Shown piece by piece: positions 4,181 through 51,135 of a DNA stretch of 64,000 nucleotides. The position numbers were made by a program, and so were the translations under genes. The notes beneath the pieces were generated by a model that saw only the letters and a list, made by a program, of their open reading frames with translations, searched no databases and had not been told where the DNA came from. This stretch comes from a virus. Numbering within the stretch: the first letter of the stretch is position 1; every line of letters starts with the position of its first letter. The DNA is taken from positions 37,725 to 101,724 of the IMG/VR virus record IMGVR_UViG_3300021168_000002; one strand, given 5' to 3'.

Positions 4181-4190
4181 AGGAATTAGG

Positions 4191-4604: not shown

Positions 4605-4606
4605 AT

Positions 4607-17228: not shown

Positions 17229-18128
17229 TTACGCATGAAGATCGAACCCCAAACCTGCCTTATCGGCCCATGTTTTTCTGACCATAATCTGCTCCCCAAA
17301 TTTTGTGTATCTTTCAGAAACATCGCCCGCCGCGTGACCGGCCCAAAACTTCACCAGGGTCGCGGGGACGCTCGCGGCTTGCAGGTGGGTGATGCGGAAG
17401 CGGCGCATGGAGTGAAAACCTTCTAGCCCGAGTTCTTCTATGCGGCGGCGAAGAGTGCGCTCCGAGGATACAAATATTTTTGAATCGCGAATCGCGAATA
17501 CCGAATGCAGGAGGCTATTCAGTGCCGGGTCTAAGTCCACGATACGGGTCCCGGCCTTGGTCTTGGTGGAGTCTTGCAACTTGCCGTTGACCAGGGTCGC
17601 GCGTACCGCGATGGTCCCGGCTGCCGGGTCCCAATAGTTGGACACCCCGTCGTCGATCTTATGCATGGCAAGGGCCTCCCCGACCCGTAGGCCGGTCCCA
17701 GCCAGGAGGGCCACTAATCCCCCCACTTCGCCCCTTACGGCTGCCACAGCGCCTCCCAGCGCCAGGGATGTGGCAATTGGGGTCCTCTGGGCTGATTTGT
17801 CGATCTTCGGGGCGTCGATAAAGCGGGTATTCCACGTTCTGGGATAAAGTTGATTTCCTTCGTCGTCTACCGCAGACTTGACAACCTGCTTCACGAGACT
17901 GACTGCCAAGGTTATGGTGGCGGGACTCAGATCAGCCTCTGCGAGACGGCCAACGAGTACCTTGACAGTTCGGTTGTTGACCTCCTGCAATTCCAGCCCG
18001 CCGATGGCAGGTAGGAGACGGAAGTCGATGATGGAGCGATAGACGCGCAAAGTGTTCACTTTCGCGGGGTCACTTTTGCGAAGGGCAATTTCAGACATGA
18101 AAGTCTCAGCCTGTGATTGAAACGTCAT
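17229..18128 (-). CDS. Tyrosine recombinase / integrase
   Basis: 299 residues. The catalytic set is complete: R148 (GTGLRVGEAL), K191 (TKTKAGTR), H239-x-x-R242 (FHSMRR), H265 (FWAGHA) and Y274 (SERYTKFG). Residues 1-90 form the SAM-like core-binding region. The start at 18128 is preferred over an upstream GTG because the promoter -10 (18149-18154) overlaps that GTG, and GGAG lies before 18128. It would catalyse site-specific integration and excision. No att core could be identified. The nearest tRNA (51.2 kb) is far away. Confidence 0.88.
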   Translation of the reverse strand: MTFQSQAETFMSEIALRKSDPAKVNTLRVYRSIIDFRLLPAIGGLELQEVNNRTVKVLVGRLAEADLSPATITLAVSLVKQVVKSAVDDEGNQLYPRTWNTRFIDAPKIDKSAQRTPIATSLALGGAVAAVRGEVGGLVALLAGTGLRVGEALAMHKIDDGVSNYWDPAAGTIAVRATLVNGKLQDSTKTKAGTRIVDLDPALNSLLHSVFAIRDSKIFVSSERTLRRRIEELGLEGFHSMRRFRITHLQAASVPATLVKFWAGHAAGDVSERYTKFGEQIMVRKTWADKAGLGFDLHA

Positions 18129-18148
18129 CTTGTTTTCTCCATGCACCA

Positions 18149-18177
18149 AGTCTCTCACAGTTCGGAAAGTTTGTCAA
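18149..18177 (-). promoter_or_regulatory. Promoter upstream of integrase
   Basis: On the minus strand: TTGACA (18177-18172), 17-bp spacer, GAGACT (18154-18149) preceded by TGA. The -10 is weak, suggesting low or activator-dependent expression of the integrase. Confidence 0.6.
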
Positions 18178-22951: not shown

Positions 22952-24175
22952 TTACTCTCCGATCTCTGTCTGGACGGTAAGCGTCCCGTTCTGATCGTCT
23001 GCCAGCTTCAAGGTGATCTGGTTCAAACTGATCTTGTGCTGTTTCAAGTACAAGACCACTCTACCAGATTCCACCGGGCCTGTCAAGACAATTCTTGCAT
23101 TATTATTTACCCCAATTGCGCCCACGGCTTCGTCTAGAATTACGTAGCAGCCGGGGTCTGGGATGCTGTTGTGAAGTTTGCAAAAGCCGATAGTCGCGAT
23201 CTTGGTACTGGCCTTGCAGACCCGGGTATAGTGAACCGGAACCGCCTTGGGCTGATTGCAGTCTGGGGACGGCTGGGCTGCTATCGGGGCCAGAACGGGT
23301 TGTGGGGCTGGTACAACGATAACCTGCGGCTGAGGGGCTGCTGGGGGCTGTGGGACCACGATCTGGGGGACTGGCGGAACCACGATAGCTAGGCAATCAT
23401 CCAAGGTCAGCTTGGCGCGTCTGGCAGCATCGCTGCTGCAAAGTATCCTCGCCGCTGCGGTCTTGTTGCCGAGTGCGTAGAAAACAACTGCGGTCTGTCG
23501 GGAATCGCAACCCTTGTCGGTCTTGCTCACCCCTAGACTGCCTGCGCCACCCGGGAGAGATACGCCACCTGAGAAGCCTTTCACGCACGGTGACGTGGTG
23601 AAGGCCGCGTCCGGAGCGTATGCCATCGGCGTCTGGCGGACCTGATTGTCGACGAAGCTGGTGACATTACCGGCAGAATTGTTTGATGAACTCGCGGAAC
23701 CTCCCGTACCACCGTTTGCTGTGGTATTGTTTGTATTGGATGAATTCCCTGAGTTGGTCAATATGGAATTGCCACTGTTCTTCACCACCGAAGACCCGCC
23801 CGTAGCTGTCGCGGAGCCACCTGTGGATGTACTTGTCGAGTTGCCCCCCGTTACGCTGGAGGTAGATTTCGAATTCGCGCTGGAATTCGAAGTCGCATTT
23901 GAGTTTGCGGAGGAGTTCTGCGTCTGATTCTGCGATTGATTGACCGTAGGCGGTGTTGGCGGTGTTACCGGTGGTTTCGGAACTTGACATTGGTATAGTT
24001 GTCCTTTCGTTCCTTCGCTACCTGTGCCAAGGAACAGTTGGCCGTCTCCATTCCCGAAGGAACCGGACGTGCCAGATACTACCGGGACGCGTGATGCAAG
24101 CGGGTCGCTACAATTCCACGCGAACGCGGGCGATGCAAATGCGAGAAAAACTAATGCTAGGATGGTCTTTTTCAT
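22952..24175 (-). CDS. Secreted Asn/Ser-rich protein
   Basis: 407 residues from ATG 24175. A classical signal peptide (MKKTILALVFLAFASPAFA) precedes a mature protein with paired Cys. Residues about 75-205 are a low-complexity Asn/Ser/Thr/Gly region. A Cys-containing domain follows (SPCVKGFSGGVSLPG, CDSRQTAVVFYALG), then a Pro/Val/Gln linker and a C-terminal Cys domain. It should be exported to the periplasm or beyond. The Asn/Ser/Thr block would be a good substrate for glycosylation. Function unknown. Confidence 0.7.
   Translation of the reverse strand: MKKTILALVFLAFASPAFAWNCSDPLASRVPVVSGTSGSFGNGDGQLFLGTGSEGTKGQLYQCQVPKPPVTPPTPPTVNQSQNQTQNSSANSNATSNSSANSKSTSSVTGGNSTSTSTGGSATATGGSSVVKNSGNSILTNSGNSSNTNNTTANGGTGGSASSSNNSAGNVTSFVDNQVRQTPMAYAPDAAFTTSPCVKGFSGGVSLPGGAGSLGVSKTDKGCDSRQTAVVFYALGNKTAAARILCSSDAARRAKLTLDDCLAIVVPPVPQIVVPQPPAAPQPQVIVVPAPQPVLAPIAAQPSPDCNQPKAVPVHYTRVCKASTKIATIGFCKLHNSIPDPGCYVILDEAVGAIGVNNNARIVLTGPVESGRVVLYLKQHKISLNQITLKLADDQNGTLTVQTEIGE
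23058..23086 (-). promoter_or_regulatory. Internal promoter
   Basis: Minus strand: TTGACA, 17-bp spacer, TAGAGT preceded by TGG. It lies inside the 3' end of the secreted-protein gene and points to the 22519-22950 gene. Confidence 0.6.
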
Positions 24176-24200
24176 TGTTACCTCTTTCCGGCTTAGCCGA

Positions 24201-24422
24201 TCAATCTTTTGAACTCGAATTGGAACTTTTGAATGCGGTGCCGAAGAATACATTGAGAACGAGGGCCTTCCAAAAACCGATCTTCGCGGCACCGAAAACG
24301 AAAGTCAGTAATTGGGCGGTGAACAGATAGTTCACAATCCACATCGTGGGATATGCCATCAACATCGATAAGCCCAGGACCATTGCAACAAGAATAACTA
24401 AAGATGCGAACAGTTTTGTCAT
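24201..24422 (-). CDS. Small two-span membrane protein
   Basis: 73 residues with two hydrophobic segments (ASLVILVAMVLGLSMLMAYP and LLTFVFGAAKIGFWKALVLN) and a Ser-rich tail. First gene after the promoter at 24438-24466 and close to the endolysin gene. A holin is possible on size and topology, but nothing proves it. Confidence 0.6.
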   Translation of the reverse strand: MTKLFASLVILVAMVLGLSMLMAYPTMWIVNYLFTAQLLTFVFGAAKIGFWKALVLNVFFGTAFKSSNSSSKD

Positions 24423-25186: not shown

Positions 25187-25578
25187 AAGCCCATCCTCCT
25201 GCGTTTCTCCGGGTTGTCGCCGGAATTTGCTTTATCCTGATCGTCTAACTCTTTGAAATAATTCCGATTCACCATCGTATAGTTCGCATACAGTGCATGG
25301 AACATGTCGTAACACAGATGACAAACTGGATGTGGCCTGCTAAGTCCCGTCCTCTGACAGTCGCAGGATGTATCTCCGCATTTAAAGACTAACTCTCGAA
25401 CGGCCTTCTCGTCCCGGGTGACAACAAAGTTGCAGATTTTGCATCGTCCGGTTATGGCGCGGCGGACCCGGTCGTACTCATAGCAGTTCATATAGATTAT
25501 CTTGGGAGTAGCGGGATGCTTCAACCCAGGAATCCACGAGACCAACGCGCTCATCCAATGTCGGCCCATCGTTATCAC
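25183..25578 (-). CDS. Cys-rich zinc-binding hypothetical protein
   Basis: 131 residues; GTG 25578 overlaps the endolysin stop (an ATG at 25569 is an alternative). It has nine Cys in the middle (CKIC, CGDTSCDC, CHLC), giving two zinc-ribbon-like knuckles. Confidence 0.6.
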   Translation of the reverse strand: MITMGRHWMSALVSWIPGLKHPATPKIIYMNCYEYDRVRRAITGRCKICNFVVTRDEKAVRELVFKCGDTSCDCQRTGLSRPHPVCHLCYDMFHALYANYTMVNRNYFKELDDQDKANSGDNPEKRRRMGL

Positions 25579-26084
25579 GAATTAATCCTACGTACCCAAT
25601 TATTCGCGAACTGTGCCTTCGCCGGATTGTGGTTGATGATATTCATGCAGTGATTGATGAACGTGGTCTTGTAAGCGGGCAGCAGATTTGCGGACTGGTT
25701 CACCGCCGATAGCGTGCCGAGACCAAACTCACCATCGGTGACTAAGCTGATCTTGTTGGCCATTGTGATTTGTAGCAGCTTCACGGCCTCCCCGACGCCG
25801 AAGAGAACACCCAGGTCGAATAGTTTGTCAGCCAGCAATTGATCAGTGATCTGAGAGTAACCATCCTTCCAATAGCCTTCCCGGTAAATCTGGATGGCCT
25901 GATCTTGGGTCAGATTGAAGATGTCGAGGTTGGGGAATTCGGCGGCGCTGATACCATATTTCGTGCCCCTCAGTTCGCCCTTGCCGACCTCGCCCCCGGT
26001 CCAGTTGCCGCTGTCGCCGTGGATGTTTTGGAAACCGCCCTCGTTGATTAAAGTCTTCTGCACCGCCTGATTGAAGTCCGCCAT
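25575..26084 (-). CDS. Endolysin, GH108-type N-acetylmuramidase
   Basis: 169 residues. The opening TLINEGGFQNIHGDSGNWTG carries the catalytic Glu of the EGG motif. GTKYGIS, the YREGYWKDGY block and LFDLGVLFGVGEAVKLLQ follow in the order of glycoside hydrolase family 108. It would cut peptidoglycan during lysis. There is no signal peptide, so release needs a holin; the 73-residue two-span protein at 24201 and the 233-residue membrane protein at 53779 are candidate partners. A strong AAGGAGG precedes ATG. Confidence 0.85.
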   Translation of the reverse strand: MADFNQAVQKTLINEGGFQNIHGDSGNWTGGEVGKGELRGTKYGISAAEFPNLDIFNLTQDQAIQIYREGYWKDGYSQITDQLLADKLFDLGVLFGVGEAVKLLQITMANKISLVTDGEFGLGTLSAVNQSANLLPAYKTTFINHCMNIINHNPAKAQFANNWVRRINS

Positions 26085-26300: not shown

Positions 26301-27296
26301 TCACTTCAAATACAGCCAATGCCTGTTTTCTGCTCGCACCATCCACTCTACCGTATTTTTGAGATTGGTGTCAAGGCTTTTCGATGGCATCCATCCCATC
26401 GCGGCCAGCTTGCTGCCGTCCATACCGTATCGAACGTCGAAGCCGGGGCGAATCGTTTGAGGGTAAATCTCGCGATAAGCTAGTTCCCTTCCTAGGACTT
26501 TCGCGATCACTCTAGCGACATGCAAATTCGAATACTCTTGCATTCCTGTGATATTGTACTTCTCACGGTTCAGTCCACGCTCCAATAAAAACATGACGGC
26601 CTCGGACACGTCCTGGCAGTGTAGGTAATTTCTTGTGCCGGGATTGCCGGTCACCGGGTCAACGTGGATATCGAGGGTCCTTCCGTTGAGAAGTGCGCTG
26701 ACCACCCGTGGGATGAATTTCTCCGGATGCTGGCGCTCCCCATAAACGTTCATCGTGTGGCTGATGATTACGGGGACGCCGTACGTGTTAGACCACGCCA
26801 GTGCCAATTCCTCCCCACCGGCCTTTGTTGCGGAATACGGATTGGTCGAATTGTAGCGGTCCCACTCTCTGAATGCCTCTCCAACTTTGGCTGGCCCGAA
26901 GACCTCGTCGGTCGAGAAGTAGAAGAACTTTTTGAGTCCTGGGATGCGGCGGGCGTATTCGAGCATCTCGAAGGTTCCGAAGATATTCGCCTCCACAAAG
27001 TCGCGGGGACACGCAATCGAGCGGTCGACATGGGTCCCAGCTGCCATGTGAAGCAGGTAGTCGATGTGGCCGATCTCTGCCTCCAGGCACTTGCCCAGCG
27101 GTTTCGCGACATCTGCAACGTGAATCTTGACGCGCGGATTGTTAGGCCATGCACCGATCTCCATTAAACGCTGGAGACCATTCGATGCGTACGTTAACTT
27201 GTCGAGAAGGACGACGTCCCAATCAGTTGTTTTCAAAACATGATCGACAAAATGCGCGGCAATAAATCCTGCGCCACCTGTGATGAGAATTTTCAC
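26301..27296 (-). CDS. Sugar-nucleotide 4,6-dehydratase (RmlB-like SDR)
   Basis: 331 residues from GTG 27296, which overlaps the TGA of the upstream glycosyltransferase. ILITGGAGFIAAH is the NAD-binding Rossmann motif, STDEVFG carries the Thr-Asp-Glu catalytic set typical of dTDP-glucose 4,6-dehydratases, and YSATKAGGEEL gives the YxxxK pair. NVYGERQHPEKFIPRV is the usual sugar-nucleotide site. It makes a 4-keto-6-deoxy nucleotide sugar in the cytoplasm, presumably a donor precursor for the adjacent transferases. GDP- or UDP-sugar specificity cannot be excluded. Confidence 0.85.
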   Translation of the reverse strand: MKILITGGAGFIAAHFVDHVLKTTDWDVVLLDKLTYASNGLQRLMEIGAWPNNPRVKIHVADVAKPLGKCLEAEIGHIDYLLHMAAGTHVDRSIACPRDFVEANIFGTFEMLEYARRIPGLKKFFYFSTDEVFGPAKVGEAFREWDRYNSTNPYSATKAGGEELALAWSNTYGVPVIISHTMNVYGERQHPEKFIPRVVSALLNGRTLDIHVDPVTGNPGTRNYLHCQDVSEAVMFLLERGLNREKYNITGMQEYSNLHVARVIAKVLGRELAYREIYPQTIRPGFDVRYGMDGSKLAAMGWMPSKSLDTNLKNTVEWMVRAENRHWLYLK

Positions 27297-29371
27297 TTTC
27301 CCTCCGGGAATATGTCTGGATGATTTCTTCGAATCGCTGCGCACATCTGCTCATGAGTCTGGCCCGCTATGCTCCTCATCGAGCCGGGGCGCATCCGGTA
27401 TTTGAATAACGGTTCATGCAGGACAGCGCACTTCCAAGTTCGCTTCAAAATGTCTAAGGAAAGATTCCAATCACCGTAGGCCCAGATATCCAGATTCATG
27501 CTGTATCCACCGGCCTGCTCGAAAGCCTCTCGAAGGATGAGGCGGCAGTACGGCATCTGATTGGATACTTTCTGCTGCTCCAAAGTCTCGGCGGTCGGTA
27601 TTCGCAGGTCGGATAACCCGAAGTACTGCATATCCGTTGAGACTATGCCGACGCCTGCCTTCATAAGCGGCACGGTTTTCTCAAGATAGTGGGAGTCGAG
27701 TAAGTCGTCAGCGTCTAAGAATAGGAGCAAATCGCCTGTGGCGGCCTTGGCTCCGGTATTGCGGGCCACATTCAGTCCCTGGTTTTCTTGTCGTATCCAC
27801 ACGATTGAATCTACGAACTGCTGGGACACTGTGTGAACATTGTCCATCGAGCCGTCGTCGACCACGATCACTTCGAAGTTTCTGTAAGTCTGCGCCAAGG
27901 CCGATTCGATGGTCTCTTTCAAATACTCCTTCATGTTGTAGCAAGGAATCACTATGGATACTCGGGTCTCTACGCTGTTTCGGACCTTCAGTTCTTCAAA
28001 CAAAGACCTCGGGTGATATATTTTATTAGGCACCAAAGCGCCGTCGGTCCAGGCAGATGTTCTCAAGTGAATCAAGTAAGACCGGTCTGTGAAATTCCAT
28101 CGCTTGAGTCCGGGAGATACGAAGTGCAGCATCTCATCATATCGCATGGCATCGAGTACTATCGGGGCCTTGACATATTTGCTCAGCCCGAATTTCGGGA
28201 CGGCCTCTTTGAATAGCGCGGGGCCGAAGGATATCCAACTTTCCGGGTGCATCTTATCCATGCTCTCGATCTTGTTGGCAATGTACTTCAAAACTTCCGC
28301 GTCCTTCGGTGCCTTGAAGACGCAGCCGCTGAGATACTCTTGGACTTTGTCGGAAGATGGGATGACATCCGTATCGGGAGATCGACGAGCGCCCAATTTC
28401 TCTTCTGATACGAAGGCGTAAGGCTCCGGGAAGTCTAGTTTGCGCAGGCACACCGTATCCAAATCTACATACCAGCCGCCCTCTCTCAAGATCAGGAGGA
28501 CCCGAAAGTAGTCGCAGAAGTGCACGCTGTTGTCAAACTCCGCTAATCTAGACTTGGGTAGAATCTCGTTTGCATCTTTGACTACCGTTCCCTTCGGGAT
28601 GCCTTCCGTTGGCTGTGTTACATACAAGTGGAACTCATGGCCGTGCCGCATGTAAGAGCGGATGCACAGTTTCTGGATGTTCGTTAATTCTGGACCAGAC
28701 CAAAAGCCTCTGACGATCTTGTTGCTATCCTTCCAAGACTGGTCGGGCTTCTCTAAGTGCTGAATCTTGGGGACCAGCCCGGTCCAGCCTTCCGGATAAG
28801 CGTAGGCGGGAGATAAGACCTTTCCAGGCGGGTTGTCGTGCAGATAGCGATTCAAGTGCGATTCATCGAACCAGACTGCGGTAATTCCCTTCTCATTGTC
28901 TGCGTCGATGCTCTTGCTTATACTGGCGCACATGTGAAGAAATGCGCCGGTGCTTCCACCAACGAAGCAGCCTTGATAATATGTGGAGCCATTGCCGACG
29001 TAAGCGGCAGATTGCGGGCGACGCTCCCAAGCCTCCGGGAAACCCGGATGTAGGACTGCGGTGATTCCGCCAGCAAAAATTTCGTCGAGTGCTATCTTGC
29101 TGACGACCCGTAAGTCCACGTCCATGTAATAAACGTGGTCATACGCCAGCAGGAAGCCCCGCTGCTCGTAGATGGCGTGATAGCGCATCATGGTAGCGTC
29201 CGGCCATCCCAGGTCCAGATAATCAAACTTGATTGCGTCAAAAGAATCTTTGCTGTCGGTGAACAAGAGTATATCGCACGGTGGGAAGAAATCTCTCAGA
29301 GATGCGATCATCGGCGCGATGTGCCCTGCGTAACGTTCGCCTGTCGCGACTAGGATGACAGCGGTCTTCAT
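27293..29371 (-). CDS. Triple-domain glycosyltransferase GT6-GT32-GT2
   Basis: 692 residues. Residues 1-210: GT6 family (animal ABO/alpha-1,3-Gal transferases), with YMDVDL (DVD 84-86), LHPGFP, ERRPQSAAYV, QGCFVGGS and AVWFDESHLNRYL. Residues about 215-450: GT32-like (OCH1-type), with FWSGPEL, FCDYFRVLLILREGGWYVD and DLD 303-305. Residues 470-690: GT2, with VSIVIPCYN, VVDDGS and the LDADD metal site at 552-556. All three metal-binding acidic motifs are present. It probably adds several sugars to one glycan in the cytoplasm. It is coupled by ATGA to the GT11 gene and by GTGA to the dehydratase gene. Confidence 0.85.
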   Translation of the reverse strand: MKTAVILVATGERYAGHIAPMIASLRDFFPPCDILLFTDSKDSFDAIKFDYLDLGWPDATMMRYHAIYEQRGFLLAYDHVYYMDVDLRVVSKIALDEIFAGGITAVLHPGFPEAWERRPQSAAYVGNGSTYYQGCFVGGSTGAFLHMCASISKSIDADNEKGITAVWFDESHLNRYLHDNPPGKVLSPAYAYPEGWTGLVPKIQHLEKPDQSWKDSNKIVRGFWSGPELTNIQKLCIRSYMRHGHEFHLYVTQPTEGIPKGTVVKDANEILPKSRLAEFDNSVHFCDYFRVLLILREGGWYVDLDTVCLRKLDFPEPYAFVSEEKLGARRSPDTDVIPSSDKVQEYLSGCVFKAPKDAEVLKYIANKIESMDKMHPESWISFGPALFKEAVPKFGLSKYVKAPIVLDAMRYDEMLHFVSPGLKRWNFTDRSYLIHLRTSAWTDGALVPNKIYHPRSLFEELKVRNSVETRVSIVIPCYNMKEYLKETIESALAQTYRNFEVIVVDDGSMDNVHTVSQQFVDSIVWIRQENQGLNVARNTGAKAATGDLLLFLDADDLLDSHYLEKTVPLMKAGVGIVSTDMQYFGLSDLRIPTAETLEQQKVSNQMPYCRLILREAFEQAGGYSMNLDIWAYGDWNLSLDILKRTWKCAVLHEPLFKYRMRPGSMRSIAGQTHEQMCAAIRRNHPDIFPEGK

Positions 29372-30147
29372 ATTTTAATCCATCGCTCCGGTACGATATC
29401 TGAGTAGTCTTCTCCCGACCCGTCAGCAAACCACTTTGCGGGAGCAATCACCGTGCGGTTCTTTTGCTTGTCGCCCAACCACGCGCCCCACCACGAGAAA
29501 GAACTGTTAGCGATGATCGCGTGGTTGCAGATCGACATCAGGTAAATATCTTCTGATTCGGTGCCTGGTTCCACAAAGGTGAATGGTTCGGAAGAAAAAT
29601 TGCTCTTCACCCATTTTATGTCGTCGGAGAATATGAAAAATCGAGCACTGAGTCCACGCTCGTGCCAAATGCGCGTCATAGCATCGGCGTAGTATTTATC
29701 TGAGAGTATGCCGTGAAAACTCTTGTGCGGTTCATTCAGATAGTCGCCGCGACGAACATGAACTGCGACTGAATTGCTTTGAAAAATTTGTTTCAATAAA
29801 TCCCGCGATCTGATAGACCAAGTCAGCGGTGTGAACTCGCCGCGCAATGCATCCGGGTCGTAGAAATACTTTTCGCTCTGCCAATAGCCTTGTAGAACGT
29901 CGCCGTCCTTAATGCTATCCACTGTCGCCTGATTGTACCGCATGCCTTGTTCGTGAACGGTGGCAGCGTGACGGGGCGCTAATTGGAGAGCATCTATATT
30001 CCACTGATGGAGAGCAAGAGGTCGATTGACTCCCAGGAGGGATGTATCAAGCTGGACGCGAGTATCGAGGCGACGCGCCACCGCCAGTCCCATAGCGTAT
30101 TGAAACATCTGATTGCCCATCCCGCCCATCAGCTTCACTGTAATCAT
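29368..30147 (-). CDS. GT11 alpha-1,2-fucosyltransferase
   Basis: 259 residues from ATG 30147 (4-base overlap with the GT6 gene). The family's motifs are all there: GGMGNQMFQYA (residues 8-18), HVRRGDY (130-136), FIFSDD (171-176) and ANSSFSWWGAWL (213-224). GT11 enzymes transfer fucose from GDP-fucose to the 2-OH of galactose, the H-antigen reaction. GDP-fucose must come from the host or from genes outside the window. Confidence 0.92.
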   Translation of the reverse strand: MITVKLMGGMGNQMFQYAMGLAVARRLDTRVQLDTSLLGVNRPLALHQWNIDALQLAPRHAATVHEQGMRYNQATVDSIKDGDVLQGYWQSEKYFYDPDALRGEFTPLTWSIRSRDLLKQIFQSNSVAVHVRRGDYLNEPHKSFHGILSDKYYADAMTRIWHERGLSARFFIFSDDIKWVKSNFSSEPFTFVEPGTESEDIYLMSICNHAIIANSSFSWWGAWLGDKQKNRTVIAPAKWFADGSGEDYSDIVPERWIKI

Positions 30148-30830
30148 TTGCCCGCCTTGGTTAACGCCAGAATCTTTGGAGTGACAATCAAGCCTGCGGC
30201 CTTCCACTTGCTTGTGTAGTATGGACCTGCGTTCTCCGGGTAGCAGTAAGACGGGTCGAGAACTTTCGTTGGACCATTCAAGTATAGGTATCTGTTTAAG
30301 TGCGATTCATCGTGCCATATAGCTGTGATTCCTCTACTCGCATCTTCGTCGACTGCTCCTTTTATAGCTTGTGCCATGCGCAGAAAATGCCCCGAAGTCC
30401 CGCCATTGAAACCTCCGCAGAAATACCTGTTGTTGCTTCCTTGTGGAATAACTGCCATCGACTCAGCGCGACGCTCCGGTGTACCCGGTGTGCCGACATA
30501 GCCCGGATGTAGCGTGGCCGTTATACCATCAGAGAATATCTCCTCCCCTACCGGGGCAACGAATCGCATGTCTACGTCGATGTAAAACAAGTAGTCGTAC
30601 TTCTCAAGAAATTGATACTGTTCAAAGAAGGTGTGGTATCTGTACAGCGTCTCGTTTGGAAATCCCAAGGCATACTTTTGAAGTTGAAATTTCGCGATGC
30701 TGGGAATTAGTTCGTCCGCCCATAAGAACGCGTCGTGCTCCACGAAAAATTCTTTAGCAGACTCCAGCAGTGGATTAACATACTGGTGATATCGCTCTCC
30801 TGTGGCTATAACTAAAAGCGCGGTCTTCAT
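30144..30830 (-). CDS. GT6 family glycosyltransferase
   Basis: 228 residues from ATG 30830 (GGATGA overlap). FYIDVDM (DVD 85-87), ATLHPGY, PERRAES, CGGFNGGTSG and AIWHDESHLNRYL align with the ABO/alpha-1,3-galactosyltransferase family. It is a soluble form without membrane anchor. The known reaction of the family is transfer of Gal or GalNAc from UDP-sugar to galactose, usually fucosylated. It is clearly related to the N-terminal domain of the triple transferase but divergent, so it is not a recent duplicate. Confidence 0.88.
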   Translation of the reverse strand: MKTALLVIATGERYHQYVNPLLESAKEFFVEHDAFLWADELIPSIAKFQLQKYALGFPNETLYRYHTFFEQYQFLEKYDYLFYIDVDMRFVAPVGEEIFSDGITATLHPGYVGTPGTPERRAESMAVIPQGSNNRYFCGGFNGGTSGHFLRMAQAIKGAVDEDASRGITAIWHDESHLNRYLYLNGPTKVLDPSYCYPENAGPYYTSKWKAAGLIVTPKILALTKAGK

Positions 30831-31540
30831 CCGTTCACCGTCTTGTTCACTAGGTGCGCAGCTTCCATCCACTTCAGCTTCGGGTCATAACCGGACCCGT
30901 ACTTCAATTGCGGGAAGTGCTGCGAGTAAGCGCCCGCTGGTAGATCGAGCGCGAGCATGTCGCCCTTAGCGAATTCTGGCCCTAATACTTGTCCAACCCA
31001 CAAGTCTTCTGCCCACCCCTTAGGATAAGAATCTGAGATCAAGAACATCGCCTCCCTAGATAGGAAGTAACCGTAACCACCGCTAGCCCACGGGTGGCAC
31101 TCAGCGATATGCGTAGTAACGCCGCGACGGTCAACCGCGTCGTAAGGAAAAGTTTCGCCAATTGGCTTGCTGATCTTACCAGCATAGTCAAATCTCCGAT
31201 ATCCGCACGTCAGAAGCCTGCTTGCATTCACATAAGTATCTGTGTCGCAGAGAAAAACGTGGTCGATATTCTTGGTGGTCACCCAATGACAGATTGAGCG
31301 GACCTTGAAAGGCAACGCGTCGTAATCATCCGCGCTATCTGCGACAACCTCGTCGCTCTTCAACGTCCGAGCGTCGGCCTTGGGGTGCGCTAGAAAATAA
31401 TCCGCCCCGGTATGACCTACGAAGAACCGGACTAAGACGTTTCGGTTCCTCAAGTCTTGGCCCCAGGTCGCGCGAATCACATCGTGGTAGCCGCGATCTA
31501 AGTCAGCGCGGCACGACTTAACAGCAACGAGTAAGGTCAT
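30827..31540 (-). CDS. GT31-like beta-1,3-glycosyltransferase
   Basis: 237 residues; ATG 31540 overlaps the DHH-gene stop. VAVKSC, then IRATWG, RFFVG, FLCDTDTYVN (DTD 99-101) and the GGYGYFLSREA and EDLWVGQVL blocks match the beta-1,3-galactosyltransferase (GT31/fringe-like) pattern of animals. It would add beta-1,3-Gal, GalNAc or GlcNAc using a UDP-sugar. It sits directly upstream of the GT6 and GT11 genes in the same coupled operon. Confidence 0.8.
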   Translation of the reverse strand: MTLLVAVKSCRADLDRGYHDVIRATWGQDLRNRNVLVRFFVGHTGADYFLAHPKADARTLKSDEVVADSADDYDALPFKVRSICHWVTTKNIDHVFLCDTDTYVNASRLLTCGYRRFDYAGKISKPIGETFPYDAVDRRGVTTHIAECHPWASGGYGYFLSREAMFLISDSYPKGWAEDLWVGQVLGPEFAKGDMLALDLPAGAYSQHFPQLKYGSGYDPKLKWMEAAHLVNKTVNG

Positions 31541-32490
31541 TTTACACATCCTCCTGGCTGAACGAATGTGGTGTAAGTGATTCGATTCAGAATTTTGTCA
31601 ACTAAAATGCGGCCTTCCGGCATAGATAGCTGGAAGCCTGCGGCTGTTCCGTGGCCGCCGCCCCCGTACTTCTTTGCAATTGCACTCACGTCTACGTTGC
31701 CACTGTGTAAGCTGCGGAGAGAAAACTGCGTGATACCGTCGCCGCGTTCGAACCACAGTAAGCCGATATCGTAGCCCTTGTCGATCAGCGCCGCGCCTGC
31801 CTCGCTTACTCCGACGTACGGGATGTTTAGTACGCCAGTCTTGTAGCCTTCGAACACACCTTCCTGCGCCTCCGCGACTACGGAGCGGGTATAGTATTCG
31901 ATGTATTCGCGGACGCCCATACCGCTGCGTCGCGCGTCGTTTGCGGAAATTTTGTTTTGGATAATATCCCACGTTTCCATAGTACGTGGTTGAACCATCA
32001 GCCACGCGTTGATGAGTTGTGAATCAGGCAACGCCCAATTCCAGAGGTCTTGATCTTCGGTGTAGTTCACCCACCACGGACGCGATTCAAACATATACAT
32101 CACGCCGCCCGGTTTATCCAAACTCTGAGCGGGACGATCTTTACAATCTTTGCCGAAGAGATAATCCCACGCAAGTCCCGCGCCCGAGCGTTTCATGTCG
32201 AATGTGGCGTACTCTGCGCCGTTGAGCGCAGCCTGGGCTGTCTTGTGGTGGTCGAGGATGCGGAACGATTTCGCGACCAAATTTAGTTGGTCATTCAACT
32301 CACGAGTGCGGAGCGAGTAGTCAACCATGATGACATCTTTGCCTGCGCAGATATTGAATAGCGAATTAAGCTGGTTATCGTTAAGACCGTGATTCAGCGG
32401 CAACAGTTCTGCTTCCGGATACTTCATCTTGCAGATGTAGGCCGCCGCCCAACCATCAGGACAATTTTGGTGGAAAAGGACGAGGTCCAT
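31537..32490 (-). CDS. DHH-family phosphoesterase
   Basis: 317 residues. FHQNCPDGWAAAY, VDYSL, ILDHHKTA (the DHH motif) and a C-terminal DHHA1 loop, KYGGGGHGTAAGF, are visible. The family cleaves oligonucleotides, cyclic dinucleotides or phosphates with Mn2+. Its place inside a glycan operon is unusual. A role in nucleotide recycling or in degrading a signalling nucleotide is possible. Confidence 0.8.
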   Translation of the reverse strand: MDLVLFHQNCPDGWAAAYICKMKYPEAELLPLNHGLNDNQLNSLFNICAGKDVIMVDYSLRTRELNDQLNLVAKSFRILDHHKTAQAALNGAEYATFDMKRSGAGLAWDYLFGKDCKDRPAQSLDKPGGVMYMFESRPWWVNYTEDQDLWNWALPDSQLINAWLMVQPRTMETWDIIQNKISANDARRSGMGVREYIEYYTRSVVAEAQEGVFEGYKTGVLNIPYVGVSEAGAALIDKGYDIGLLWFERGDGITQFSLRSLHSGNVDVSAIAKKYGGGGHGTAAGFQLSMPEGRILVDKILNRITYTTFVQPGGCVK

Positions 32491-32695: not shown

Positions 32696-33481
32696 CTATT
32701 TTACTTGCTCATCAAATCCGTAGTAGTGCTTGATGTTGCGCTTCTTCATCATCAGCGCGTGGCCGGTCGTAACAGCGCGGCAGCGAAGTTTGTTGTAATC
32801 CGGGTGCTGCTTGCTCGCGTCGTACGGTATCTGATTGATATTTGCATACGGCGATGAGAATACTACCTTCATGCCCGCTTCCTTTAAGTCGAGGAACCAA
32901 TCCGCATGTTCCCCTCCTATTGGCTTAATGCTCTCGTCCCACGGCATAGCTCGTAGAACTTCGGTGCGGGCCAGGAAGTAATTCGCAGCGATATCGATCT
33001 CCCACAGCACGAACGGCTTCAACCTGAACGGAAGTTCATTGCGAAGAGCGTGCTCTTTGATATACTCACCTGGGACGTACTCAAGGAATCCTTCGTAAGA
33101 GCGGTCATTGACCCTTCCGGCGACCACGTCGATCTCTCGCCCTATATCGATCTCGGATGATTTCAGTATCCGGACCATCCGGATGATACCTTCTCGTACT
33201 TCTGGCGTAGAAAAGTCGAAGTCATCGCTGCCCATTAATGTATATTGCGTATCCACTAATCTAACCGCCGCGTTGCGCTTCGCGGTGAGACCGCTGTCGT
33301 ACGGCAGCTTCGCCCAATAATACGTGTTGTATGCGCTTTGTTCCAGCGTGCAGTCGCCATCATCGTCTTGCGCAATTCTCACTTGACACTCAGGCAAGTT
33401 CTTTTGAATCCCATCGAGACAGTCCCGCAGATAGCCTCGGCGGTGGAAGGTCGGAATGACAATGGTAATATCTTTTAGCAT
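32696..33481 (-). CDS. GT2-like glycosyltransferase
   Basis: 261 residues. ITIVIPTFHRRGYLRDCLDG, RIAQDDDGD and LMGSDDFDFS (acidic metal site) give the GT-A fold of family 2. The last part has HADWFLDLKEAGMKV. Probably the first-acting transferase gene in the operon order. Substrates unknown. Confidence 0.75.
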   Translation of the reverse strand: MLKDITIVIPTFHRRGYLRDCLDGIQKNLPECQVRIAQDDDGDCTLEQSAYNTYYWAKLPYDSGLTAKRNAAVRLVDTQYTLMGSDDFDFSTPEVREGIIRMVRILKSSEIDIGREIDVVAGRVNDRSYEGFLEYVPGEYIKEHALRNELPFRLKPFVLWEIDIAANYFLARTEVLRAMPWDESIKPIGGEHADWFLDLKEAGMKVVFSSPYANINQIPYDASKQHPDYNKLRCRAVTTGHALMMKKRNIKHYYGFDEQVK

Positions 33482-41944: not shown

Positions 41945-43087
41945 TCACTTGTGATAATACGTTCCTTGAAAACCGTCCGCGCCCAACAAGAGGCCGGGTG
42001 CCCACTCAACTTCCTTACTCATGATCTCGACCATGTCGTGATACGTCGGGCTGAGTAAATCGTCTTCGACTTGGCAGATTCCCTCGTCGTGAACGTGGCC
42101 GATGACTGGCATCTCTGCGGCCTCGAATTCGAGCAGCTTCACCGCCAAGACGTCGCGCGCGATTCCTTGTACTGCGTTCTGAAATGTGTGCCCGCCGTGG
42201 GTGGATATGCTGTTGCACCACTGCTTGGTCTTCTGGTTCATGCCCGCGTAAATGAGCGAGTCGCGGTAGACGTCGATCTCGCTGCCCTCGTCGTCCTGTG
42301 TCTTCCACGGCATCATCGTCAGTTCCAGGCGCGCATCCAAGTAGTGGAGGTACCGCCCGCTGGGCAGCCGCATCCTCATCATCGGCTCCCGTTCCTTGTT
42401 GCCCGCTGCGTCGATGAAGTTGACACGGTCAATTACCACGCAGCCGCCTGGACCTAGACGGCGGGAGGTGGCCGGGTGGTCTGGGTGCATCACGTCTGCG
42501 ACCGCGACCTCGAATTGTTTCCAGATTCCAGTTTTAGGGTCACATATTTCTGGATAAGAGTCTCGGAAGATACGCACAACTTCCGCCGCCTGTTCCTGCG
42601 ACATCTCCACACCCATATTATCCGCGTAACCCCAAAGCCCGGTCTTGACGCGGTCGCGGACCTCTTCGCAGTAGCAGTACTTCTTGCCTATCTTCTTGAC
42701 CTTCCCATTCTGCTGGACGTATGTATCGTCGGCATTGCAAAGGTCGCCGTGGTCCTTGTACGCGTTTGGACTTTTGCCCCATCCGCCGCCCGATTGACGG
42801 TAGACGGCGGCCAGCACTCCCGGCTTCGCCAATTGGCGCATGCGCTTCGCAGCCAGCTTGCGTTCCTTGCCGTTCCTTCCCGTGTAGTCGGCCCAAAGGT
42901 GATCGTAACTCATGCCAAACATCTTCGCCGCGAAGGCGATGTATGGGTCCCGACCGTTCCGCCAATATACTCCAAACTGATCTGTGTAAGGGACGAATAC
43001 ATTCATCAAGTCGGTGCAGCCCGAGAGCCACGCGGAGACGCGAGTCTCAATACCGTTCAAGTCGCAGACATTGAAGCGAGTGCTCAC
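41945..43087 (-). CDS. DNA polymerase A, C-terminal (palm/fingers) subunit of a split enzyme
   Basis: 380 residues from GTG 43087, overlapping the stop of the 68-codon gene (GTGA). It begins exactly at palm motif A: FNVCDLNGIETRVSAW (D9, E14). Motif B is in the RKLAAKRMRQL...AAVYRQSGGGW region, and motif C is VIGHVHDEGI (near residue 333). All catalytic acids are present, so polymerisation should be possible if it pairs with the N-terminal product at 43300-44490. Confidence 0.9.
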   Translation of the reverse strand: MSTRFNVCDLNGIETRVSAWLSGCTDLMNVFVPYTDQFGVYWRNGRDPYIAFAAKMFGMSYDHLWADYTGRNGKERKLAAKRMRQLAKPGVLAAVYRQSGGGWGKSPNAYKDHGDLCNADDTYVQQNGKVKKIGKKYCYCEEVRDRVKTGLWGYADNMGVEMSQEQAAEVVRIFRDSYPEICDPKTGIWKQFEVAVADVMHPDHPATSRRLGPGGCVVIDRVNFIDAAGNKEREPMMRMRLPSGRYLHYLDARLELTMMPWKTQDDEGSEIDVYRDSLIYAGMNQKTKQWCNSISTHGGHTFQNAVQGIARDVLAVKLLEFEAAEMPVIGHVHDEGICQVEDDLLSPTYHDMVEIMSKEVEWAPGLLLGADGFQGTYYHK

Positions 43088-43290
43088 TTTAGCCTCGTGT
43101 ACGCCAGCCGTCGAAGCGGCGTTTCGCAAATCAGGTGCGCGAGCCACAGAGGAAAGCCTTTGCGGTGAACCCATATTTGCGTGTCGGGTTCGCCGCTCCA
43201 GGCTATCATCTGTCTAGCTCTTTCAATGGCGGCTTCCTTCGTATCGTACAAAGGCTCTCCGTCTTTTTCATCGAATCCTGTGAATGTCAT
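43084..43290 (-). CDS. 68-residue protein encoded between the two polymerase halves
   Basis: Strong ribosome site GAGGAGG before ATG 43290. The start lies 9 bases after the N-terminal polymerase gene, and the TGA overlaps the GTG of the C-terminal gene. The pattern YDTKEAAIERARQMI and IWVHRKGF faintly resembles small DUF2188-type domains. It is not an endonuclease or an intein fragment by motif. It might bridge the polymerase halves, but that is speculation. Confidence 0.65.
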   Translation of the reverse strand: MTFTGFDEKDGEPLYDTKEAAIERARQMIAWSGEPDTQIWVHRKGFPLWLAHLICETPLRRLAYTRLK

Positions 43291-43299
43291 AAAGCCTCC

Positions 43300-44490
43300 T
43301 CATGATGTGACGAACACCGTACGGATTAACGACTTCACCACCAGCAAGACGCTCAGATACTTTGCTTTAATGCCTTCGTAATCTTCCGCGTATACCATTG
43401 CGCGAGCATCTTGAACTACCTTCTGATCTTCGAAATCGTGGCCTCCCACAACCAGTGGACGTGCCAAATTATGAAGTTGTACAGCCGTACCAGACCATCT
43501 ACCACAGCGAGGGCTGCCGAGGAAAATAAACTGCCCACGTAACCTCCCATCAGGTGAAACTGATTCCAATATCTTGCCCAGCTTTTGATAGCTCGTGCTG
43601 GCCGCTTCCGCGCGCATCTTTAGCGCGGCGCGGCACGCGTCTGTCAACTTGATGTCCGGGTCCTTCAAGACCGATGTGACCGTATCCTTACGGATGGTGC
43701 CATACGGATAGCCCTGCGTCTTGGCCCACGCCTTAACCTGGGTGGGTGAATTCGCATTCGTTACGCCGGTCATCTTTTCGAAGTTCAACTTGGCCTCTTC
43801 CTTCGCGCGAATGGCCAGCGCATACATCTTACGAACGAATTCCACGTCCACCGGCATCCCGCGATCATTCACCGTCTGATCGAAGAGCCACAGCTTCTGT
43901 TCAAATTCAGGCAGCGGCAGCGCCTTCAAGATTCGCATGCGTCTGAGTAGCTCACCTTCCGCGATCAAGTCCTGCCGTCCATATTCGAGAAACTCTGCCC
44001 ATTCTTTAGGATGCGAATTCCAATCGTTGTAGTATTCGCGGCCTTCCCTCTTCTTCGTTGCCGTCACGATGACCTTGTCGCAGAACAGTTTAATCAGCGC
44101 GTCTCCGCGTGCATCCTTTGCCAAGTGCGTTGGCACGCCTAGGACTTCGCACTGCACCTCCAGGCTGGCCGGGAGCGAGAGATAGCGACCACCGACTTGG
44201 GGGTCGATGAAACGGCTGGCCGGGATTTCATGATGCAGCTTCTGAAACATATAACGTTCAAAGCAAGAATTGAAGGCTACGAAATATGCGTCCGGATGAT
44301 TCGCTGCCTGCCATAATTCATCATGTATCTTCTCGCCTTCCCAGATACGCCAGCATTTATAGTCGCCCGTGCCGATTCGGTACCACAAAAATAAAGGTTC
44401 TGTATCCAGCGAGAAGATGTAGTTATACAGTCCCCGGTCGGAAGGAGAGAAGGTGCTGCGCGATTCAAAGTCGATCAAGACTTCAATCAT
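43300..44490 (-). CDS. DNA polymerase A, N-terminal (3'-5' exonuclease/thumb) subunit of a split enzyme
   Basis: 396 residues from ATG 44490 (a TTG at 44502 is an alternative). Exonuclease motifs: IDFESRS (D7, E9), VAFNSCFERYMF and YGRQD. The thumb region follows, then GSPRCGRWSGTAVQLHNLAR, the conserved block just before the palm. It stops after SLIRTVFVTS, at the point where motif A should follow. The full proofreading set is kept. The partner gene is 213 bases further on. Confidence 0.9.
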   Translation of the reverse strand: MIEVLIDFESRSTFSPSDRGLYNYIFSLDTEPLFLWYRIGTGDYKCWRIWEGEKIHDELWQAANHPDAYFVAFNSCFERYMFQKLHHEIPASRFIDPQVGGRYLSLPASLEVQCEVLGVPTHLAKDARGDALIKLFCDKVIVTATKKREGREYYNDWNSHPKEWAEFLEYGRQDLIAEGELLRRMRILKALPLPEFEQKLWLFDQTVNDRGMPVDVEFVRKMYALAIRAKEEAKLNFEKMTGVTNANSPTQVKAWAKTQGYPYGTIRKDTVTSVLKDPDIKLTDACRAALKMRAEAASTSYQKLGKILESVSPDGRLRGQFIFLGSPRCGRWSGTAVQLHNLARPLVVGGHDFEDQKVVQDARAMVYAEDYEGIKAKYLSVLLVVKSLIRTVFVTS

Positions 44491-46522
44491 TGTCGCCGCC
44501 AAACATCATGTCACGAGTCATGCGAACCACACACGGGTCGCCCTTGCAGCCCTTGCCCTCGATAATGATGAAGCCTTCTTGCACCAGCGCGTAGAAACTT
44601 TTACGCCAGACCGACAGCCCGTACTTGTTGGCGTTCAACGCACGCTCCACGTCGCGCTTCTCCATCGTGCCGCCGTTCTTCTTGAGCAGCCGCACGACGC
44701 CCTGCTGGATGGCGGACTCGTCGTTCTTGGCCTCGAAGGTCATGAGGTAGTCCTTGACGGACTCCTCGTATTTCACCATCTCGATGCCGCGTGCGACGCA
44801 GTCTTCGTCTATTTCGCCATCGAGTCCCAGGTCAATCGCGAAGTACAGCGCCCACTTCTCAGCGCGGGCGGCGGCGCGGTTGCCGTAAACTTCCAAAATA
44901 CGTTGCAGCGGGGTCTTGTCGAAGAACTGGTAGCTGCCTCTCGTTACGGCTGCATCGATCACCTTGCGGGTCGCCAGGGCGGCCTCGTTGTAGTTTACCG
45001 CATGCTCCAGCTTCAGTGTGGGTAGCGTCTTCGGTTCCAGAATCCAAGTGAATCGATCATTCAATCCGGTGTCTTCCCCGGCGAGTTGAGACCACAGTTC
45101 CGCAAATTTGCGGTCGGTGGTCGCGGTGACAAGCGTCGCGCAGTATGTACCAGGGTCTATGTTGAAGGTATCCTTCTTAGTTTTAATCGAATTGGAAAAA
45201 CTATTCGAGTCGTACAATTTTAGCAGCGCGCTATTCATCCCGCTGCCCTCGATGCGGGCCTTGCCTACCAAAGCAGATAGCTCGTCGTAAACCAAGATCG
45301 GATTCTTGCAGTTGGTACGCATCATGTCGGTGCCCAACCCTTCCGGCGAGCCTGCTTCCCACACGAGCGACTTCCCGTCGGCATTCTTAATATTCCTCGA
45401 ATACATTGAGAGCACACTGGCGAATTCTAAAAACCGCATCGCGTCCCTGATCGAAGATGACTTATTCGAGCGGCCTTTCTTTCCGATCAGCACCATGTAA
45501 AAGCTGGGCTTCCACGATACGTACGGCACAGAGACCTTGGTACCGAGGTAGTTCATCATCATCGCGGCGGTTGGGAGAAACATGAAGTAGTCAACCCGAG
45601 AATTGCTCTCGCAGTACGGCTTCACGAATCCTTCATAGATAGACGTGCCAAACATGACGTGGCGGGGAAACAACGGGTATTCAATCGGCTCAAAATTCAG
45701 CGGCTCCGCTGACTCCATCGGGACGACTGTTGGTATCTGATTCAAGATGATAGCCGTTTCTTCGCCCACCGGGAAGTTGCAAATAGACCTCGACATCAGA
45801 ATAACTTTCGAATCGTCAATCGGTTCTTCGCATTGCTCGTGAACAATGCGCAGCAGCGCGACCTCGATCTCCTCGTGCGTGAGACCTGCGTTGCGCATCC
45901 TGCCAGCCTGCGACAACATGAAACCGTGGATGCTGCCGTGAGGAACCTTACCGCGCTCATTGCGGGGCGCGTCGTCTGGCGCGGCGGTTTGCTTCTGAAT
46001 CTTCTGTGACATCAGCCACTGGACGAGCCAGTCCGGTGCCTCCGCGATTGGCGTAGCCCAATTTAGCGCCGTGTAAGGCTGGCCAGTATCTGGATGGATG
46101 CTGCCGGGGCCGACAACATACTCGCGATTCGTGCGAACGGACCAGTCTTGGCCGACGACGTAAGTCTGGCTAATATTGCCCATCTCAAGAGAGACAGCGG
46201 TATGGCGAAAATAGAAGTGACCGCGTCCGGGGCGAGAGCGCACCATGAATGTCGCAGGCATCTGCTGGCCGGTATCGCGCAGTATGCGGGGCAGAACGTC
46301 CTTAGAATCTGTTTCAAAAAACCAGACGCCGCTAACTTCTGCGCGGGCCACGCAGGCCACGTTGCTGTCGGGAAATTGAGCGTCCCACGCGGTGATCTGG
46401 TCGAGGCTGGTAGTTGCTGTGGTGGGGAAATCTGGTAGGAAGGCGCGCTTCGTGCCGGGGCGCACGGGTGTGACTGGCACGCCCAACTTTGCTAGCGGTT
46501 CGGCAATCTGTTTAAATCCCAT
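44483..46522 (-). CDS. Primase-polymerase / helicase fusion
   Basis: 679 residues. Residues 1-170 are a bifunctional primase-polymerase (AEP) domain: FFETDSKD (E70-x-D72), SRPGRGHFYFRH and YVVGPGSIHPDTGQPY. Residues from about 280 are a DUF3987-like ATPase with P-loop IGKKGRSNKSS (about 346-356), Walker B-type ILVYDEL and a DRFTWILEP arginine-finger-like block. It would prime and unwind at the replication fork with the adjacent polymerase, SSB-like protein and exonuclease. Confidence 0.85.
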   Translation of the reverse strand: MGFKQIAEPLAKLGVPVTPVRPGTKRAFLPDFPTTATTSLDQITAWDAQFPDSNVACVARAEVSGVWFFETDSKDVLPRILRDTGQQMPATFMVRSRPGRGHFYFRHTAVSLEMGNISQTYVVGQDWSVRTNREYVVGPGSIHPDTGQPYTALNWATPIAEAPDWLVQWLMSQKIQKQTAAPDDAPRNERGKVPHGSIHGFMLSQAGRMRNAGLTHEEIEVALLRIVHEQCEEPIDDSKVILMSRSICNFPVGEETAIILNQIPTVVPMESAEPLNFEPIEYPLFPRHVMFGTSIYEGFVKPYCESNSRVDYFMFLPTAAMMMNYLGTKVSVPYVSWKPSFYMVLIGKKGRSNKSSSIRDAMRFLEFASVLSMYSRNIKNADGKSLVWEAGSPEGLGTDMMRTNCKNPILVYDELSALVGKARIEGSGMNSALLKLYDSNSFSNSIKTKKDTFNIDPGTYCATLVTATTDRKFAELWSQLAGEDTGLNDRFTWILEPKTLPTLKLEHAVNYNEAALATRKVIDAAVTRGSYQFFDKTPLQRILEVYGNRAAARAEKWALYFAIDLGLDGEIDEDCVARGIEMVKYEESVKDYLMTFEAKNDESAIQQGVVRLLKKNGGTMEKRDVERALNANKYGLSVWRKSFYALVQEGFIIIEGKGCKGDPCVVRMTRDMMFGGDND

Positions 46523-49862: not shown

Positions 49863-50098
49863 GCGGCCCTCTTAATTGCTTCTTTGATATCGTTTGGTTC
49901 CCCGTCTACAGGGCACGGTACAACCTTGCGTTCCGGATTCAAGTCGCTCACGAACCATCCCCGGCCACAGCGACCACAGCGTAGATTGCCGGTGAAGTGG
50001 AGGACGTTTTTCACACCTTGTCGCTCCCGGCGCTTGGTGCGAACTTCTCTACCGACTGCGGCCTGTTCTTGCGTGATCGGTTTGCGTTGTTCGCTCAT
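49859..50098 (-). CDS. Small zinc-ribbon protein
   Basis: 79 residues with LRCGRCGRGW and a later VVPCPVDG. Both ends overlap the neighbours by 4 bases. Confidence 0.6.
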   Translation of the reverse strand: MSEQRKPITQEQAAVGREVRTKRRERQGVKNVLHFTGNLRCGRCGRGWFVSDLNPERKVVPCPVDGEPNDIKEAIKRAA

Positions 50099-51135
50099 GC
50101 GTATGTCCCCCTATGATTTGCTCCTCCGCTATAATAAGGAGGTGTCAAACTTGCGGTCTTCTCGTAACGCGGCGAACCAAATCGAACATACCAGTCCTTG
50201 ATTACCTTTGAACGGTCTGATGGTGATACTGCCGTATGATAGTACACACCCCGCTTATTGCCGTGGTGTGTTGACGCCTTCTTCTCGATCTTGATTTGAA
50301 CCAAATCGTGGCCCATAAATTCTACTCCGAGAGCCTCCAGAGGCGTCATGTTTAGTACTTCAAGGGCCTTAAAGAAGGCGGCAATCCTGCGTCTGCGCGG
50401 ACTCGCGCCGTCTCCGATAGGCTTGCCGTGCTCTTTGCAGCACACCTTTCGCCACACACAACCCGGAACCGTACACCACTTTTCTTGATTTACTCCGTCG
50501 TGAGCCTGCGTTTTCGTTGGCGCGAGAGGCAAAGGATTCTTACAATCCTCTGTACAATTGGGGCAGTGCAGACGGAGGAAAGCCATCATCTTTTTATATA
50601 CCTCATCATCCACGCCCTCGTGTCCGGTTCCTTGCGTCTCTCCCAAATGTTTATAGATACGTGAGTACTGCGTCGCCTTGTTTCCGCCAAATAGCGATGT
50701 AGTCGTGATACCCATCAGGCTTTGTCCATATCTATCCTCTACAAAATCTCCGAGAGTATAGGCGATCATCGCCATCAACTTGCCGAGATTCCAGTGCCAG
50801 CCAATCGGCTGTGCGGCCACGCAGACGCTCATATCCATGTACCCCTGTATTACTTTTCCCTTCTCTTGCTTTGCCATGCCAGGGAAGAGATAGGCATCTC
50901 TCACAGAGAGAGCGAGGACCGGGCTGGCTAAAAAGATTAATCCCAGCAAGTGCTCTCCGTGAACCACTAGAAAACCAAGTTTGCGGCCAAAAGCGGGACG
51001 CCAAACTGCCTTCGACATTTGCTTCTGGTAGTAGGTCATTACACCTGCTGATACTTGTATGACTTCGATCTTATTCGGTTCGATCTCGAAAAGCGGAGTC
51101 GTCACCGAGTAACTTTTTAACTTCTCGTCTGTCAT
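50095..51135 (-). CDS. DruA-like (DUF4338) protein
   Basis: 346 residues. GRKLGFLVVHGEHLLGLI, SVRDAYLF, YMDMSVCVAA, NLGKLMAMIAY, EDRYG, ITTTSLFGG and SRIYKHLGETQGTGH occur in the same order as in DruA (DUF4338) of the Druantin anti-phage system and related proteins. A Cys cluster (HCPNCTEDCKNP, CVWRKVCC) is inserted or added C-terminally. The molecular activity of DruA is not established. The other Druantin genes are not adjacent. Confidence 0.6.
   Translation of the reverse strand: MTDEKLKSYSVTTPLFEIEPNKIEVIQVSAGVMTYYQKQMSKAVWRPAFGRKLGFLVVHGEHLLGLIFLASPVLALSVRDAYLFPGMAKQEKGKVIQGYMDMSVCVAAQPIGWHWNLGKLMAMIAYTLGDFVEDRYGQSLMGITTTSLFGGNKATQYSRIYKHLGETQGTGHEGVDDEVYKKMMAFLRLHCPNCTEDCKNPLPLAPTKTQAHDGVNQEKWCTVPGCVWRKVCCKEHGKPIGDGASPRRRRIAAFFKALEVLNMTPLEALGVEFMGHDLVQIKIEKKASTHHGNKRGVYYHTAVSPSDRSKVIKDWYVRFGSPRYEKTASLTPPYYSGGANHRGTYA

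Follow-up and report, generated by a model that had tools for sequence, protein, structure and literature searches.

We analysed a window of 64,000 nt of viral DNA (positions 37725-101724 of the 101,724-base IMG/VR virus record IMGVR_UViG_3300021168_000002), in which a five-gene cassette occupies positions 31540-26301 of the minus strand; all coordinates given for it refer to the window. The genes encode, in this order, a GT31-type glycosyltransferase (GT), a GT6 enzyme, a GT11 enzyme, a GT6-GT32-GT2 fusion and an RmlB-like dehydratase. A preliminary description had proposed here a phage operon of the enzyme families that build ABH-type (histo-blood-group-like) glycans, and its coordinates, gene order and 4-base overlaps were borne out by the junction sequences. 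Precisely, we read ATGA at the GT31/GT6, GT6/GT11 and GT11/fusion junctions, GTGA at the fusion/dehydratase junction, and a further ATGA between the GT31 gene and the DHH phosphoesterase gene directly upstream. These junctions set the start codons at ATG 31540 (GT31, after an AGGAGG ribosome-binding site), ATG 30830 (GT6), ATG 30147 (GT11), ATG 29371 (fusion) and GTG 27296 (dehydratase). With overlaps at all four internal boundaries and at the DHH boundary, at least six genes look translationally coupled.

The GT31 call, the weakest part of the preliminary description, became firm after profile search, structure prediction and Foldseek. The protein (30827-31540, 237 aa) scored 39.6 bits against the Pfam model Galactosyl_T (PF01762; E-value 6.4e-10; cut-off 23 bits), and 13 of 20 viral records with GT6 also exceeded this cut-off. 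The DxD, TW and E-D-(V/L)xxG-type motifs of the family are intact (CDTDTY, IRATWGQ and EDLWVG), with a core that is invariant across 13 sequences. The protein had no PHROG match and returned nothing in a single-sequence PDB search; a profile of 13 phage homologues matched human B3GALT5 (4e-11), then B3GALT6, B3GNT2 and C1GALT1. Its AlphaFold2 model (mean predicted local distance difference test score, pLDDT, 91.9; predicted template modelling score 0.90) retrieved B3GNT2, B3GalT6 and B3GalT5 at Foldseek ranks 1-30, followed by CHSY, C1GalT1 and Fringe, at only about 20% identity to the animal GT31 enzymes.

Both GT6 domains were well above the 25-bit cut-off of PF03414, with 117 bits (7.9e-34) for the stand-alone enzyme (30144-30830, 228 aa) and 84 bits (9.4e-24) for the fusion domain; the NCBIfam model Gltr_6 also scored GT6, but under its 250-bit cut-off. 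By phmmer the stand-alone protein matched BoGT6a of Bacteroides ovatus, the closest solved GT6, at 6e-33 and ABO transferases at about 6e-29, aligned over the catalytic domain. The two domains share a DVD motif and carry the catalytic-Glu (xDES) motif as WHDESHLN (stand-alone) and WFDESHLN (fusion). Most bacterial GT6 enzymes, BoGT6a included, have NxN and are metal-independent (PMC3961637), whereas the phage enzyme, with its DVD, is predicted to be metal-dependent; counted loosely by motif, 67 of the 86 different viral GT6 domains retrieved are of the DxD type. In the alignment, ABO residues 266-268 correspond to C-G-G in the stand-alone enzyme and to Q-G-C in the fusion. The corresponding donor triplet is L-G-G in A-type enzymes and A-G-G in BoGT6a (PMC4202792), which binds and uses UDP-N-acetylgalactosamine (UDP-GalNAc) (PMC3961637). 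Since C-G-G resembles both, GalNAc may be a better guess than galactose (Gal) as donor sugar of the stand-alone enzyme, an assignment to which we give low weight.

The GT11 protein (29368-30147, 259 aa) belongs to the fucosyltransferase family by Pfam (PF01531, 4.1e-34) and PHROG 2644 (2.3e-49), with an HxRRxD-type motif (HVRRGDY) and the stretch SSFSWWGAWL. Thus the preliminary family calls stand for GT6, GT11 and GT31, all over curated cut-offs and unambiguous for the first two, and so does the visibility of their motifs. Its GT6-containing fusion (27293-29371, 692 aa) can be refined to three domains, all over curated cut-offs: GT6 (residues 1-212), GT32-type Gly_transf_sug (about 216-460; 3.5e-7, 31 bits against a cut-off of 23) and GT2 (470-692; 4.7e-34). 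The middle domain is only borderline in relatives (loci L010, L013 and L126) and its model has a pLDDT of only 67; the best fold matches of this model (GT-A toxin glycosyltransferases and GT6) were not used as evidence. The last gene (26301-27296, 331 aa from the GTG) encodes a short-chain dehydrogenase/reductase (SDR) of the dTDP-glucose 4,6-dehydratase type, with a PHROG 540 match (4e-80) and an STDE motif, as the earlier label of TDE-type dehydratase implied. Its best model, TIGR01181, gave 268 bits, under the 365-bit equivalog cut-off, so that RmlB-like is a safer name than RmlB.

We also looked at the distribution of the families. By tblastn in the phage record collection, GT6 was found in 71 records and GT11 in 102, mostly of cyanophages, and the two genes abut in Bellamy, DSL-LC02 and B23; GT6 occurs in at least 529 IMG/VR stretches. 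For GT31, tblastn with three different queries found no relative in the phage record collection. IMG/VR holds at least 106 stretches encoding GT31 relatives, against only two matches in 84,980 prokaryote species, in a pattern-based scan that may miss diverged cellular members. The combination of all three families in a phage had been called unusual; this does not hold for GT6 with GT11, an adjacent pair common in cyanophages, but it does for GT31, to our knowledge an essentially eukaryotic family of beta-1,3-glycosyltransferases. The closest predicted viral structures to the GT31 model are from a pithovirus, an elephant herpesvirus and, in one case, a myovirus ("Fringe-like"), hence the fold is not wholly new to phages. 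Two candidates were rejected. The "galactosyl transferases" gp300 and gp301 of Tunturi_5, tried as a GT31 precedent, are pyruvyl-transferase-like and GT2/GT7-like, with no GT31 match. The contig CABMCB010000059.1 ("uncultured archaeon LFW-28", L027), one of the two prokaryote matches and tried as a cellular GT31 carrier, is a phage contig of the window's own lineage, with helicase and exonuclease 54-56% identical to the window's and the GT31-GT6-GT11 trio; its place in an archaeal bin is a probable mis-binning.

Co-occurrence was evaluated with home-made profiles run over all the loci fetched. Loci seeded with GT31 held the three families together in 23 of 78 cases and those seeded with GT6 in 24 of 80, whereas with the dehydratase as seed it was 2 of 64. 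Removing loci that had the same GT6 stretch left 23 distinct ones with the trio, not counting the window. A comparison of gene order in related phages had been proposed in the preliminary description. Of the 23 loci, 16 have GT31 next to GT6 (3 expected by random placement; median gap 30 bases), and 9 have GT6 next to GT11. The window's phage backbone is present in 11 of these loci, and in the other 12 neither its helicase nor its exonuclease has a match; relatives and seemingly separate occurrences are thus counted together. Chance can be set aside, because other contigs retain the module at identities as low as 30-50%.

GT31 and GT6 are also found fused in one open frame, as GT31-GT6 in L007, L009 and L088, in the reverse order in L099 and its near-copy L101, and as a single 1016-aa GT31-GT32-GT6-GT2 frame in L126 (8444-11491, plus strand); both Pfam families exceed their curated cut-offs within one frame in L009, L088, L099 and L126. 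That the fusion occurs in either order strongly indicates a shared pathway for the two enzymes. The divergences of GT31, GT6 and GT11 are correlated (Mantel r 0.58, 0.50 and 0.46; 0 of 2000 permutations). Sugar supply genes are linked as well: 14 of the 23 trio records have a GDP-mannose 4,6-dehydratase (GMD) over the 415-bit cut-off, and 7 trio loci give strong scores for GDP-fucose-synthase-like genes, for which the NCBIfam model is the best one but stays under its cut-off. The fusions and these GDP-fucose genes strengthen the earlier view of the enzymes as one pathway, and a conserved, sometimes fused module makes the finding more significant than had been thought.

On this evidence we consider it fairly probable that the cassette is a phage-encoded glycan-assembly operon, which would add sugars in sequence to a glycan carried by the virion or by the host envelope. 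The product is most likely a branched fucosylated oligosaccharide, perhaps A-type and ABH-like; we infer its linkages, sugars, order of assembly, acceptor and display site. The cassette proteins all lack membrane segments, so the enzymes would act in the cytosol, with a phage protein or a lipid-linked glycan of the host as substrate, adding sugars stepwise to one oligosaccharide. GT31 would lay down a beta-1,3-linked hexose, most likely Gal and less likely N-acetylglucosamine (GlcNAc) or GalNAc; GT11 would add fucose, usually alpha-1,2; the stand-alone GT6 would add an alpha-1,3-linked sugar, by its residues GalNAc (A-type) rather than Gal; the fusion and the dehydratase may extend or vary the chain. 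The order, with GT31 before GT11 and GT6, is suggested by the animal pathway and by what is known of bacterial and human GT6 enzymes, which use acceptors carrying fucose (PMC4202792). UDP-sugars would come from the host, and so would GDP-fucose in this phage, whereas many relatives would make the latter with phage genes of their own. Once displayed, the glycan would probably change recognition, through receptor masking, superinfection exclusion or protection.

Several points weigh against this reading. The proteins are only distant relatives of characterised enzymes, and the GT31 family spans Gal, GlcNAc, GalNAc, glucose (Glc) and Fringe activities. We identified no initiating transferase, flippase, glycosylation sequon or acceptor protein. 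In the window phage we found neither a GMD nor a fucose synthase, so that its GT11 needs host GDP-fucose. The count of GT31-GT6 adjacencies includes related phages and not independent cases only, and 38 of the 78 GT31-seeded loci have neither GT6 nor GT11, hence the GT31 family works elsewhere too. Finally, ABH synthesis has no need of the GT32, GT2 and 6-deoxysugar-type dehydratase components that are likewise part of the cassette.

The last point leads to a similar cassette with a non-ABH product, an O-antigen- or capsule-like oligosaccharide of other sugars (a 6-deoxy sugar via the RmlB-like dehydratase, GlcNAc or Glc), to which we give almost even chances. The top fold matches of the GT31 model in fact mix B3GNT2 with B3GalT5/6, the operon ends in the dehydratase after a fusion with two additional domains, and the Q-G-C triplet of the fusion GT6 is unlike the A or B type. 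Some relatives carry extra PseB/FnlA-like and RmlD-like SDRs or a DegT aminotransferase, by which the glycans probably differ among phages. However, the frequency of GMD in the related records points to fucose, and the active-site pattern of the stand-alone GT6 is BoGT6a/A-type like. A literal ABH product is possible, but that a family of soil-type phages independently carries the whole animal-type ABH toolkit, often with a GDP-fucose supply and a GT31-GT6 fusion, and decorates virions or hosts with true A-like glycans, seems unlikely to us.

As for the display site, the cassette may alter the host lipopolysaccharide or O-antigen (seroconversion, superinfection exclusion) and not the virion, which we hold to be a serious possibility, if somewhat short of an even one. 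Cytosolic-looking enzymes could act on an undecaprenyl-linked oligosaccharide ahead of export, bacterial GT6 and GT11-type enzymes have such a role in E. coli O86 (PMC4202792), and genes of this kind in a cyanophage were read as cell-wall modification (PMC9602691). GtrA/GtrB-type membrane proteins, a flippase and a polymerase are nevertheless absent from the cassette, and the genes lie between replication and lysis with no clear lysogeny module, so that conversion would be brief. GT11 does not follow the phage backbone (L004 has a helicase 82% identical and a GT11 40% identical to the window's, L006 57% and 55%), which looks like module exchange, as expected for surface-glycan variation, and fits either display site. 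The lack of a flippase, polymerase or Gtr-type membrane protein makes us lean slightly, with low confidence, to the virion.

Two further explanations fare poorly. Accidental moron cargo with no joint function is very improbable: glycosyltransferase genes are frequent phage cargo and the cassette content varies among close relatives, but translational coupling, motifs kept at 30-50% identity, several GT31-GT6 fusion architectures and correlated divergence all argue otherwise. Glycosylation of modified bases in the phage DNA is hardly credible, since, although phages use glycosyltransferases on hydroxymethylated bases, GT6, GT11 and GT31 are not known as DNA glycosyltransferase families, no base-hydroxymethylating enzyme was present among the genes scanned (not every gene), and GMD and four GT families would be left unexplained.

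The glycan-assembly operon can be compared with known systems. The animal ABH pathway uses the same three CAZy families (B3GALT, GT31; FUT1/2, GT11; ABO, GT6), also with a DxD-type GT6; the animal enzymes are Golgi-anchored, whereas those of the phage are soluble and are accompanied by GT32, GT2 and a dehydratase. In E. coli O86 the beta-1,3-galactosyltransferase belongs to GT2 and not to GT31, and the locus is chromosomal, with a flippase and a polymerase. This blood-group-B-active locus likewise combines a GT6 (WbnI) with an H-type alpha-1,2-fucosyltransferase (PMC4202792). Among cyanophages, P-SSM2, Bellamy, ACG-2014f, DSL-LC02 and B23 also have GT6 beside GT11, and S-SCSM1 has GMD, GDP-fucose synthase and an alpha-1,2-fucosyltransferase (GT11) together (PMC9602691); they belong to another phage lineage, and no GT31 relative or GT31-GT6 fusion was found for them in the phage record collection. 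The chlorovirus PBCV-1 encodes a three-domain transferase (A111/114R; Gal-Xyl-Fuc) and a GMD that serve one glycan, as proposed here (PMC9614988), although it is a eukaryotic giant virus with an N-glycan on its major capsid protein, and the likeness may not extend to domain homology. Phage glycan cassettes are therefore already known, and what is new is the GT31 component with the GT31-GT6 fusions; no paper on a phage GT31-GT6-GT11 module was found in the open-licence PMC literature.

Beyond the viral GT31 lineage itself, the repeated pairing or fusion of GT31 with GT6 offers a compact, testable enzyme set for blood-group-like glycans. The cassette may also be a source of ABH-like antigens in the environment, and it widens the view of phage glycosylation beyond cyanophages. 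Should its target be the virion, chlorovirus capsid glycosylation would have a counterpart among the viruses of prokaryotes.

The glycosyltransferase operon lies in a tailed-phage genome: the same record has terminase, portal and virion structural protein genes on the plus strand and DNA polymerase, primase, helicase and exonuclease genes on the minus strand. On one side of the cassette are the replication genes of the minus strand, on the other a GH108 endolysin gene (25575-26084). The window portal (35% over 605 aa), the major head and several structural proteins have matches in Tunturi_3, a podovirus of the acidobacterium Tunturiibacter (PMC11924767); our best guess, at a distance too large for certainty, is a podovirus infecting Acidobacteriota or some similar bacterium of soil. 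The DHH/DHHA1 phosphoesterase gene upstream of GT31 (31537-32490, minus strand; PHROG 4771, 3.4e-62; DHHA1, 4e-7) is probably co-transcribed with the cassette, and homologues adjoin it in 6 related phages. Just upstream, a GT2-like glycosyltransferase gene (32696-33481, minus strand; Pfam GT2 0.0036, under the cut-off) is kept beside the cassette in 12 of 23 related loci, with 34-69% conservation.

Just beyond the lysis genes, a 446-aa open reading frame (ORF; 22952-24292, minus strand) encodes a probably exported protein with a Ser/Thr/Asn-rich stretch (58% S+T+N over 110 residues). It is conceivable as a glycosylation target; weighed as acceptor, it had no homologue in the related loci searched, whose reach was only 10 kb. 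DNA polymerase I is seemingly split into two minus-strand ORFs (41945-43174 and 43300-44502) matching consecutive parts of PHROG 17. A weak tyrosine-recombinase match (PF00589, 3e-4, under the cut-off) lies at 17229-18158 on the minus strand. In the GT31/GT6 phage contig L088, positions 3850-5289 (minus strand) encode an ice-binding-like protein (PF11999, 4e-25), whose cluster is also present in L009, L010, L013 and L192. Within the window phage, a 346-aa protein (50095-51135, minus strand) matches the Druantia-associated DruA family (PF14236, 1.7e-10).

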